DNA of 64,000 nucleotides, taken from Flavobacteriales bacterium (GTDB lineage Bacteria; Bacteroidota; Bacteroidia; Flavobacteriales_E; Vicingaceae). Shown here piece after piece: positions 23,298 through 46,590 of the stretch. The DNA is taken from assembly GCA_002706365.1 (NCBI GenBank), contig PALM01000032.1, positions 124,001 through 188,000 on the forward strand, read 5' to 3'. The notes beneath the pieces were generated by a model that worked only from the letters and a program-made list of their open reading frames with translations, was not told the DNA's origin and ran no database searches. Made by a program: the position numbers and the translations under genes. Numbering within the stretch: position 1 is the first letter of the stretch; each line of letters begins with the position of its first letter.

Positions 23298-23334
23298 CTC
23301 GAGTGATCCCGATTAATCGGGATAGTATCGAGAG
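23298..23334 (-). repeat. Dispersed hairpin repeat, copy in the glmS gap
   Basis: Read on the minus strand: CTCTCGATAC, one base, the perfect 18-base palindrome ATCCCGATTAATCGGGAT, then CACTCGAG. It shares the outer arms CTCGATAC and CACTCG with copies near 34.9 kb and 46.6 kb, while the inner stem differs. The outer arms can pair (CTCGA with TCGAG) around a TAC/CAC internal loop. Confidence 0.8.
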
Positions 23335-32740: not shown

Positions 32741-34756
32741 ATGAAAAGCGTTCGTGCCCAGCTTTTGCTGATTTTTCTATCATTTATCGTTGTGAGCCTT
32801 CTCACAGCCCTATACACTGCGAACCACTATCAAAAAAAGCAAGACCTCAGCAGTATAGATACTGAGCTAAACCAGCTAGAAGTACTGCTACTTCAATCTC
32901 TAAAAGAGCAAGAGAACTTCTTCAACTTCGAAACAATGAATGAAGAGTATTTTGTCACTTTAGAAAGTAAATACCTGAAAAGGTATAAGAACAAATTAGA
33001 TCGTGTAAAGCAAAAGATCAGTGCACTCTACGACAGCGAATACACTACAGAGCCCAGTAAGGATCATTTGGCGAATATTCGCTCAGAGCTTTTCGATTTT
33101 GAAGTCAATTTCAAGACCATCACACAAAAAATTACCGAAAGAGGCTACAAAGATTATGGCGTGATCGGGGAAATGAGAAAAGTGGCACATCGCTTGGAAG
33201 AAGAGGCACTACTTCCCTCCAATGATATCCTAATGCTGAGGAGACTAGGAAAGGATTATATCATCCGGCAGAATGAGGATTATCTAGAAAAACACTCCGA
33301 ATATCTTCAAGAATGTATTGCAAAGATTGAGAATTATGAGGCTTTAGATGAGTTTGATAAGGAGCTAAGTCAGCAGCTACTGATACAATACGGCCGACTC
33401 TTCAAAAGGATGAGTGAATTGGATAAACAGATCGGACTCAAAACCAATTCGGGTTTAAAAAGAAACTTGAACAAGAACATTAATGAAACCCTGTATAAGT
33501 TGGATCTGCTCAAAATGGGGATTATCAGCGACCAAGACGAGCAATTGGTAGCTTTGAACTTTTCACTGATCACTTTTTGGACCATCTACCTCATTATTGC
33601 CATCTGGCTATGCATCAAGGTAGCAAGTAGGTCTACTCGCAGGATCAGCGACCTCAGCCAACATATCAACTATTTCGTAAACTCAAATTTCACTGCACGT
33701 CTCGACTCCGATTTCAAGAAGGCTACCGCAGATGAAGTTGGAATGCTCTGGGGTAATTTCATGAAAATGGAGAATGAGATCATCGAATATATCGAACTCT
33801 TCAAAGAGAAAGTGGATGAGAAAACCATTGAGTTATCAAGGCGAAACAGATTGATCGAGGCACAAAAGCGAGAATTGGAGATCAAGAAAGCAGAATCTGA
33901 AGAGCGATACAAAGACTTGCTTGATGGAATGAGATACGGCTGGAGAATCCAAAATGCATTACTGCCAAGTAAGCTAAGGTTCGAAAAACAAGTCGAGAAA
34001 GGTTTTGTATTCTTCAGACCAAAAGACATCGTGAGTGGTGATGTCTATTTTACTCATAAGCTGAATCGCAGAGAAGGCGTTGAGAATATCTTCTCTGTAA
34101 TAGATTGTACCGGGCATGGAGTTCCCGGTGCCTTTATGAGCATCTTGGCTATGAATTCGATCAATAATGCAGTGCTAACAGTTAAGCATCGCGATCCGCA
34201 TTATATCTTGCAAGAGGCCAACAACTTTGTGTACTCATCAATGAAATACTACCTGAGTAAGTTCAACAAAGAAACCATTACCAAAGATGGTATGGATATG
34301 ATGGTGTGTAGATTGAAAAGGGAAACCAATTCACTGAGCTTTGCCGGTGCTCACAGACCACTCTATATTGTCCGAAAAACTGAGAACGACAGCGGTCTAG
34401 GCCTAAGTGAAGATCAATATCGAACCATGGAAGTGAACGGATGCAGATTGTACGAAGTAATTCCCGTAAAGAAAACAGTTGGTACTGTGCATCCCGAAGA
34501 AAGTTCAATATTCAATAAAGTCGAGATCAAAGTGCAAGAGGATGATATGCTCTACTTGAGCTCTGATGGCTATGCCGATCAGTTTGGAGGACCTTCCAAT
34601 AAGAAATTCATGACGAAACGACTAAAGAAATTCCTTTGTAAGATCTTCGATCTATCTCTAACAGAACAGGAAGAACGTTTGGCTGATGGATTCGAAAACT
34701 GGAGAGGAGAAAATGATCAAATAGATGATGTGTGTTTGATGGGAGTCCGAGTATAA
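32741..34756 (+). CDS. Membrane-bound SpoIIE/PP2C-type serine phosphatase with extracytoplasmic sensor region
   Basis: A 671-residue signalling protein. A membrane segment at residues 6-25, a long helical periplasmic region (about 26-265), a second membrane segment (about 272-292), a HAMP-like/coiled-coil linker (about 293-395), then a PP2C-like SpoIIE domain: MRYGWRIQNALLP, IVSGDVYFTHKL, and VIDCTGHGVPGAFMSILAM. The metal-binding aspartates GD and DxTGHG are present; the usual GGD is SGD here. Such proteins dephosphorylate anti-sigma antagonists or similar partners, but no partner gene is nearby. It stands alone, flanked by gaps. Confidence 0.85.
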   Translation: MKSVRAQLLLIFLSFIVVSLLTALYTANHYQKKQDLSSIDTELNQLEVLLLQSLKEQENFFNFETMNEEYFVTLESKYLKRYKNKLDRVKQKISALYDSEYTTEPSKDHLANIRSELFDFEVNFKTITQKITERGYKDYGVIGEMRKVAHRLEEEALLPSNDILMLRRLGKDYIIRQNEDYLEKHSEYLQECIAKIENYEALDEFDKELSQQLLIQYGRLFKRMSELDKQIGLKTNSGLKRNLNKNINETLYKLDLLKMGIISDQDEQLVALNFSLITFWTIYLIIAIWLCIKVASRSTRRISDLSQHINYFVNSNFTARLDSDFKKATADEVGMLWGNFMKMENEIIEYIELFKEKVDEKTIELSRRNRLIEAQKRELEIKKAESEERYKDLLDGMRYGWRIQNALLPSKLRFEKQVEKGFVFFRPKDIVSGDVYFTHKLNRREGVENIFSVIDCTGHGVPGAFMSILAMNSINNAVLTVKHRDPHYILQEANNFVYSSMKYYLSKFNKETITKDGMDMMVCRLKRETNSLSFAGAHRPLYIVRKTENDSGLGLSEDQYRTMEVNGCRLYEVIPVKKTVGTVHPEESSIFNKVEIKVQEDDMLYLSSDGYADQFGGPSNKKFMTKRLKKFLCKIFDLSLTEQEERLADGFENWRGENDQIDDVCLMGVRV

Positions 34757-34845
34757 AGCAAATCGGAGATCGGAAATTTGGAATAAGGAAAAAGGGGAAA
34801 GGATTAAGGAGAAAGGAATCTGCGAGATCTGCCTGACCCGACGGC

Positions 34846-34926
34846 TCCCGAGTGATCCCGCATGTCTCGATACTTTTCCGATTTCATCGGAAACACTCGA
34901 CAAGCTAATGGGATTGTATCGAGGGA
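34846..34926 (-). repeat. Dispersed hairpin repeat, outer copy split by an inner copy
   Basis: The left half TCCCGAGTGATCCC (34846-34859) and right half GGGATTGTATCGAGGGA (34910-34926) together make a minus-strand copy, TCCCTCGATAC-A-ATCCC ... GGGAT-CACTCGGGA. The arms match the copy at 46552 exactly. The two halves are separated by another, oppositely oriented copy at 34866-34901. Confidence 0.7.
34866..34901 (+). repeat. Dispersed hairpin repeat, inner copy
   Basis: CTCGATAC, one base, stem TTTCCGAT, loop TTC, stem ATCGGAAA, then CACTCGAC. Same arms as the other copies, different stem. Lies inside the outer copy. Confidence 0.8.
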
Positions 34927-35214
34927 TAGTCGGTGGCGAATGAAATCAGCGTGATCTGCGGGAAAGAATTAAGAGCAGTGATTCTCAGAGTTCAGAGTAC
35001 AATAGAAATGTTGAAATTTTTAAATTTCGGCTAGCGGGTATTGAGGGTCGGCAATCGGCAATTCTATCCAGCGAAGGTGTACGGCAATCGGTCCAAAATC
35101 AATTATGATTATTATTGCAAATCTCTAGTTGCCTACTAATGAGACAATTATTAAATTAAAAATTAAAACAACCACCATTATTCCCTACTTTTATTAAGAC
35201 AAGTTTCAATTGCT

Positions 35215-36267
35215 ATGAAATTAAATATTCCCCTACTAAAAGAAATCTGCGAGATTGCTGGTGCTCCAGGTTATGAACAAAGGATTCGCGAGCTGGTAAT
35301 TTGCGAGGTTAGCCCTCTGGTTGATGAAGTTAAAACCAATAATCTAGGTAACGTCTACGCCATAAAAAAGGGCAAGGCCGATAAGAAAGTGATGATCGGT
35401 GCCCATATGGACGAAATTGGGTTCATTGTTACCCATATCGACGATAGAGGTTTTGTCCGCTTTCACACCTTAGGAGGTTTTGATCCAAAGACCTTAACTG
35501 CCCAAAGAGTGATCATTCACGGGAAAGAAGATGTAATGGGTGTAATGGGAAGTAAGCCCATTCACGTCATGACGAATGAAGAAAAGGCCAAGAATCCCAA
35601 AACCACCGACTACTTCATTGACCTTGGTATGCCAAGAGAGAAAGTAGTGGAATTGGTTGATGTGGGTAATCCTATTACGCGATACAGCGAATTGATCGAA
35701 ATGGGAGATTGTGTGAATTGTAAGTCGATCGACAATAGAGTATCTGTTTTCATCCTTCTTGAAACACTGCGATTGCTGAAGGATAAAGAAGTTCCTTTTG
35801 ATATCTATGGCGTATTTACCGTTCAGGAAGAAGTGGGAATTAGAGGAGCAAATGTATCCGCAATGGAAATTCAACCTGATTTTGGTTTCGGATTAGACAC
35901 AACCATCGCCTATGACCTTCCCGGGGCAAAACCTCATGAAGAGATCACTAAGCTTGGAGAAGGTACTGGTATCAAGATCATGGATGCATCTGCAATCTGC
36001 GATTATAGAATGGTAGAATACATGAAGCAAACTGCCAAAAAGCACAAGATTAAATGGCAGCCAGAAATCCTTACTGCAGGAGGAACAGATACTGCCGGAA
36101 TTCAACGTATGAATGATGGAGGTGCAATTTCAGGAGCAATTTCTATCCCTACAAGACACTTGCATCAGGTAATTGAAATGGCTCATAAAGAGGACATTTT
36201 AGCCTCTATTGCGCTATTGGAAAATTGCTTGCTTGAGCTGGATAAGTTCGACTGGAAATTCAGCTAG
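35215..36267 (+). CDS. M42-family glutamyl aminopeptidase
   Basis: A 350-residue cytoplasmic di-zinc aminopeptidase. Metal and catalytic residues are recognisable: GAHMDEIGFIV (His and Asp), KSIDNRVSVF (bridging Asp), TVQEEVGIRGA (catalytic and ligand Glu), GLDTT and the late His in PTRHLHQ. Usually trims peptides. Its TAG stop shares the palindrome CTAG with the stop of the convergent pheS gene. Confidence 0.92.
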   Translation: MKLNIPLLKEICEIAGAPGYEQRIRELVICEVSPLVDEVKTNNLGNVYAIKKGKADKKVMIGAHMDEIGFIVTHIDDRGFVRFHTLGGFDPKTLTAQRVIIHGKEDVMGVMGSKPIHVMTNEEKAKNPKTTDYFIDLGMPREKVVELVDVGNPITRYSELIEMGDCVNCKSIDNRVSVFILLETLRLLKDKEVPFDIYGVFTVQEEVGIRGANVSAMEIQPDFGFGLDTTIAYDLPGAKPHEEITKLGEGTGIKIMDASAICDYRMVEYMKQTAKKHKIKWQPEILTAGGTDTAGIQRMNDGGAISGAISIPTRHLHQVIEMAHKEDILASIALLENCLLELDKFDWKFS

Positions 36268-46551: not shown

Positions 46552-46590
46552 TCCCTCGATACAATTTCGCTTTGCGAAATCACTCGGGAC
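46552..46590 (+). repeat. Dispersed hairpin repeat between scoA and scoB
   Basis: TCCCTCGATAC, one base, stem ATTTCGC, loop TTT, stem GCGAAAT, then CACTCGGGAC. Same outer arms as the copies near 23.3 and 34.9 kb, with a different inner stem. Confidence 0.8.

Follow-up and report, generated by a model that had tools for sequence, protein, structure and literature searches.

In Neisseria, a small GIY-YIG nuclease has as its target the NTS repeats, of which the genome carries many copies; the enzymes concerned, Ssn, are reportedly GIY-YIG nucleases acting on single strands of these repeats. REP palindromes, for their part, are also targeted by insertion sequences other than ISPpu9. ISPpu9 itself is described as an insertion sequence targeting REP palindromes (PMC8450116); a repetitive palindrome is the target here too, but insertion sequences of that type bear a transposase, whereas the insert here is a short palindrome of the same kind. 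REPs and REPINs are palindromic, non-autonomous repeats, found as inverted pairs and considered to be mobilised in trans by a small single-strand enzyme (PMC6006769, PMC3116915), and the subclass 2.6 RAYTs of Bacteroidetes are noted for atypical flanking structures (PMC6006769, same sections). Closest in form to the repeat described here are the CGTC-tagged REPs, short intergenic palindromes that occur in numerous phyla, Bacteroidetes and Spirochaetes among them (Di Nocera et al. 2013, PMC3733652). As far as the consulted text of that paper goes, these REPs have no dedicated or associated transposase gene, their terminal CGTC is often TGTC, and dimers of them are described as inserted inside other palindromes.

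Our preferred reading of the present repeat, to which we give a probability of about one half, is that of a REP-like palindrome partnered by a GIY-YIG nuclease, whose core is copied to the centres of palindromes and whose compounds are then copied as a unit.

The window, by which we mean the whole 64-kb stretch of DNA analysed, contains a compound palindrome at 34838-34933 (no strand assigned), delimited from its sequence and from co-variation in 18 copies. It is closed by CCGAC (34838-34842) and GTCGG (34929-34933), and recurs in the same genome at 80-99% identity. It starts 81 bases past a gene with a SpoIIE-type phosphatase domain (32741-34756, plus strand), and a gene for an M42 aminopeptidase comes after it (35215-36267, plus strand). 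Its outer unit lies on the minus strand (34849-34923) and consists of CGAGTG (34849-34854), ATCCC (34855-34859), an interval of 50 bp (34860-34909), GGGAT (34910-34914), a single T and GTATCGAG (34916-34923), which is the order of a minus-strand CTCGATAC...CACTCG unit. The interval is 50 bp because the inner unit, whose core CTCGATAC-hairpin-CACTCG occupies 34866-34899 on the plus strand, brings with it the arms GCATGT/ACAAGC and a TAAT (34860-34909 in all). The original prediction, that a plus-strand copy is nested in a minus-strand copy between ATCCC and GGGAT, is thus borne out by the sequence of 34849-34923. Two simple single-unit copies complete the four in the window, one at 23300-23332 (minus strand, stem type ATCCCGAT/ATCGGGAT) and one at 46555-46586 (plus strand). 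The latter had been said to match the outer arms of the compound base for base; this holds for TCCCTCGATACAAT and ATCACTCGGGA (25 nt) and fails for the stem, which is ATCCC/GGGAT in the compound and ATTTCGC/GCGAAAT in the copy at 46552, and for the arms further out. GATCTGC is found on either side of the compound (34826-34832 and 34953-34959) without adjoining it, and this pair is apparently part of a different dispersed repeat, not a target duplication.

The letters CTCGATAC and CACTCG form an asymmetric internal loop, and the stems on both sides of it vary in sequence yet pair. When 18 of 20 compounds in the genome were aligned by structure (L083 and L088 were left out), 90.5% of the pairing cells were paired, against 82.0 ± 0.9% in shuffled and 23-47% in slid alignments, and changes on both sides of a pair numbered 46, against 18.1 ± 3.7 and 3-14 respectively. 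The number of further pair types in these 18 compounds (21, against 22.3) showed no excess over shuffles. The compensatory changes across copies support a single long hairpin with internal loops, its apical stem 8 bp long and its loop 3 nt. Taken alone, the window sequence folds moderately better than its shuffles (z of -2.8 as RNA and -2.0 as DNA), and no Rfam model matched the window at its gathering score. The outer halves prove on alignment to be homologous and to co-vary in the 18 compounds, rather than being unrelated sequences.

To count the repeat, the 3.02-Mb genome was searched with the single-unit pattern CTCGATACN{8,38}CACTCG, which gave 39 matches and none for the reversed control, and with a long-gap pattern, which gave 16 (control, 0): ten nests, the inner unit being decayed in three of them, four representatives of a different, 69-bp family, and two simple units whose loop holds a 20-bp palindrome. 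When the compound and its surroundings (191 bp) were used as a DNA query, 55 matching stretches were returned, many of them short, which on realignment resolved into 24 different copies, namely 20 compounds, a half compound (L097) and three inner units standing alone (L095, L096 and L072). In none of 20 relatives searched with element-containing DNA, one of them of the same genus, was a match listed, and in G003 the same gene pair is separated by a spacer of about 54 bp from which the element is absent. That the element is copied, as the original prediction had it, is upheld by these scattered copies and by their absence from the relatives searched. That the locus records an insertion event of its own is not: the nested form is itself a repeated unit of about 20 copies, which is why the window copy was probably nested before it spread. 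A single event at this locus, in which one repeat entered another, would fit the geometry of 34849-34923 and the unoccupied sister copy described below, but the shared arrangement of about 20 compounds places the event before their spread; a one-off event here is rejected on copy number, and we give this explanation almost no credence.

Two minor families accompany these copies. Four of them carry, at one and the same position within the CTCGATAC loop, a 20-bp palindrome resembling CCTGCCCGACGGCTGGCGGG; they lie at C30:71433 (L023), C18:62030 (L017), C40:41737 (L071) and C37:14512 (L070). The 69-bp family, CTCGATACATTTTT...TTCCTTCGGAA...AAAACACTCG with a different middle, is found at C5:6372, C29:169, C32:27493 and C44:70607.

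The original prediction had called for an outer copy without its occupant. A sister copy answering this description exists on contig C18: its outer unit and its flanks on both sides are the same as those of the window copy, and a short apical loop stands in place of 34860-34909, such that ATTCCGCGAAGCGGAAT occupies the position of ATCCC, the inner unit with its arms, TAAT and GGGAT in the window. Being a single pair, it would fit a gain of the inner unit as well as a loss. A short target duplication, which had also been suggested and would be expected of a classical MITE or insertion sequence, is not visible in this pair, the one pair examined. A second line of evidence comes from copies with different types of arm, whose 74-nt cores agree at 91-96% of positions while their arms agree at only 25-75%. 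In 16 of the 20 compounds (excluding L084 and L100, in which the left arm is replaced, and L083 and L088, which carry the extra 20-bp palindrome), each left arm nonetheless pairs with its own right arm: the value is -8.44, compared with -5.44 ± 0.57 for permuted arms, and none of 500 permutations did as well. Since a base-by-base change of both arms around a near-constant core is unlikely, we infer from these alignments that whole cores pass from one palindrome to another. Contig C46 holds a second kind of nest (C46:123752) with different arms, so that differing arm types nest in each other. The guess that the centre of a palindrome is the site at which the core is copied is supported by the C18 sister, the like cores between unrelated self-complementary arms and the nest on C46. 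An occupied and unoccupied pair, together with like cores between unlike arms, makes insertion at palindrome centres a concrete and testable claim.

Nests of the same order are found in other genomes. Strict searches of 199 genomes for CTCGATAC-x-CGAGTG-hairpin-GTATCGAG, in which the two units have opposite polarity, gave 23 matches in eight genomes, although the one match in G056 has more the look of a pair of adjacent units than of a nest; same-polarity nests numbered zero in the same 199 genomes, in a comparison that represents rather few independent events. Units lying side by side in module loci are inverted in 77 cases and in the same direction in 31, and because these 31 share a direction, a general preference of the repeat is not enough to account for the missing same-polarity nests. 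As judged from these sequences, insertion in random orientation would not give such a pattern. A wider nest scan of GTDB species genomes yielded at least 111 stretches. Among the 80 loci listed, at least 41 matches pass a loose test (an inner hairpin and a closing motif), in hosts that include Flavobacteriales, other Bacteroidota, Spirochaetota, Chitinispirillaceae, Solimonas and Termititenax, though some of the 41, like some of the 94 different nest cores considered below, are located in GC-rich or coding sequence and could be chance matches. Control loci scanned loosely, with one mismatch allowed and the hairpin check omitted, give about 0.02-0.18 background matches per kb, and single loose matches are for that reason not counted as evidence. 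The stems of nests in other Bacteroidota, Spirochaetota and Solimonas are unrelated, with the order unchanged, and the pairing value of the middle stem over the 94 cores is -9.76, compared with -5.44 ± 0.26 for permuted partners.

These observations might also be explained if the two-loop hairpin were the ancestral functional unit, its loops of opposite polarity offering dyad-symmetric single-stranded DNA or RNA to a protein dimer, and single-loop copies were reduced derivatives, with no insertion involved. The recurrence of one order with unrelated stems in several phyla would be accounted for, as would the strict-search polarity (23 against 0) and the strong co-variation. The middle stem, however, ranges from 6 to 33 nt in the 94 cores, unlike a fixed dimer site, the standalone inner units have arms of their own, different arm types nest mutually on C46, and the C18 copy has the same flanks around one unit only. 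We consider an ancestral two-loop unit unlikely, and prefer the copying of cores into palindrome centres.

Comparison with the CGTC-tagged REPs brings out both likenesses and differences. The present repeat is close to them in form, is intergenic and has no associated transposase gene. In 41 of the 94 nest cores GTCA occupies a fixed place, three bases ahead of the inner unit's CGAGTG, and may be compared with TGTC among the ends CGTC, TGTC and CCTC of those REPs. None of these 41 is from the genome of the window, whose nest cores lack the tag and have AGCT (six) or CGCT (one) in its position. A CGTC-tagged REP is a single hairpin with a stem of 8-9 bp and a loop of 4-5, unlike the long hairpin with internal loops found here; the consulted text of PMC3733652 has no description of the conserved CTCGATAC/CACTCG internal loop, and opposite-polarity nesting is, in strict searches, the rule here.

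A transcribed structured element, such as a bidirectional terminator or an mRNA 3' structure, could be kept by selection, with the similarity of copies arising from ordinary duplication and gene conversion. Several copies do lead into T tracts (L001 for example), the RNA fold is stable, and of 53 matches examined in the genome 15 lie between convergent, 18 between codirectional and six between divergent ORFs. Ten of the 53, by contrast, lie inside ORFs of at least 90 aa, as crudely called, and four at ORF edges; the apical stems keep long runs of identical letters that a terminator would not need, the burst of compounds is lineage-specific, and the proximity to GIY-YIG genes is left unexplained. 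Such an origin seems improbable to us, and a mobile, copied core remains the reading that we favour.

Alternatively, the repeat could be a REP element that RAYT transposases (HuH, Y1) move as they do REPINs, nesting being a by-product. The repeat is indeed palindromic, intergenic and multi-copy, with neighbours often inverted, its genome has three RAYT-like genes (L031, L032 and L033), one of them a clear REP_Tyr_transpos, and Bacteroidetes RAYTs with atypical flanks are known (PMC6006769, sections consulted). Yet each of the three is surrounded by its own, different palindrome family, none of which is the CTCGATAC/CACTCG family, and the 33 Y1 loci searched (102 kb) contain no hairpin module. 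PF01797 found no match in the module-bearing genomes G001, G002, G030, G035 and G045, and the sole near case is G056, in which some 1.1 kb separate a RAYT-like gene from two modules. The GT[AG]G foot is absent beside the hairpin, the conserved letters being CTCGATAC/CACTCG instead, and hairpins lie inside one another rather than side by side as in REPINs. A RAYT was thus not found as partner beside the modules, that one near case apart, and we hold mobilisation by RAYTs to be highly improbable. One of the three RAYT-like genes, L031, has a stop codon in frame.

Our preferred reading assigns the part of the partner to a GIY-YIG nuclease, a gene for which sits between two modules on contig C14 of the same genome. 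It encodes a small single-domain GIY-YIG protein of 97 aa (PF01541, 1e-14), the nearest solved relatives of which are UPF0213 proteins (1zg2 and 1ywl); among the small GIY-YIG genes looked at in this genome (on C10, C14, C20 and C36), it is the only one so flanked. In module-bearing loci, which had been chosen for their modules, no GIY-YIG ORF found is more than 48 bp away from a module, and most are flanked by modules on either side; the 8-kb loci around the Solimonas and Spirochaetota nests yielded no GIY-YIG ORF. Two samples were taken without regard to modules. In the first, the best-scoring PF01541 gene of each of 30 relatives, modules with up to one mismatch were present on both sides within 160 bp of five of the 30 genes and of none of 81 control ORFs (Fisher, 0.0011); exact matches on both sides were present at two of 30 against 0/81 (p 0.07). 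In the second, class-wide sample (the 30 best C14-like genes, one per genome, from 295 genomes), CTCGATAC modules flank only the C14 gene itself on both sides, and many genes have palindromes with a related core, TTCGA...CTCA. A generalised core YTCGR...CTCR with perfect 5-nt arms was present within 200 bp of 17 of 30 genes in the second sample, 5 of 30 in the first and 1 of 76 control ORFs, the reversed motif being found nowhere; the corresponding p values (9.5e-11 and 0.0067) are optimistic, given that the core was picked after seeing the flanks of some of the same genes. With 6-nt arms, the sample of relatives gave 2/30 (p 0.19). The single control match, L038, itself holds a GIY-YIG ORF.

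The GIY-YIG gene could be a passenger beside the repeats. That the nuclease moves them is what we infer from the association, which provides a candidate partner open to an in vitro test that needs just a single small protein and a single oligonucleotide. By analogy, the pairing can be read as close to that of Ssn and NTS, since the C14 product is a small single-domain GIY-YIG protein whose gene has palindromes of its own type, present in many copies, close by; the Ssn/NTS system is not known to show nesting or an exchange of palindromic arms. Literature searches found no paper linking GIY-YIG to palindromes or REP elements, and those for COG2827, for Ssn/NTS and for single-stranded nucleases in natural transformation gave nothing relevant by title. 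Searches with the strings CTCGATAC and CACTCG gave titles, among the matches listed, unrelated to bacterial repeats, and the motif is absent from the text of the RepRanger paper (PMC12306157).

The mechanism that we propose would run as follows. The conserved part is the asymmetric internal loop 5'-CTCGATAC / CACTCG-3', lying between stems that are free in sequence and kept in pairing. The core, that is, this loop with its apical hairpin, would be copied to the centre of other palindromes, its own copies included and then with opposite polarity, and the resulting compound would be copied in turn as one unit. A small, UPF0213-like GIY-YIG endonuclease may bind the folded single strand and cut near the conserved loop, triggering a repair that copies the core into another hairpin. 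Copies that lack the gene would spread in trans, and a strand-specific cut would fix the orientation and could in this way explain the polarity rule. More tentatively, a small GIY-YIG nuclease, and not a HuH transposase, may drive widespread REP-like palindromes with the core YTCGR...CTCR, the core homing into palindrome centres, taking over their arms and nesting in its own kind with opposite polarity, a generalisation that we consider possible rather than probable. If true, it would make the GIY-YIG nuclease the missing partner of REPs that have no transposase.

Other small GIY-YIG genes were seen in settings of a different kind. A tandem array of one such gene (L338, G010:C9:905000-911500) has 10 copies, one every 457 bp, and another GIY-YIG array (L339, G022:C2:183000-187500) has eight or more, about every 375 bp; the spacers of both arrays hold apparent tRNA 3' ends. 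In the genome of the window, a small GIY-YIG gene at C10:73741-73950 (L334) lies directly after a tRNA-like sequence.
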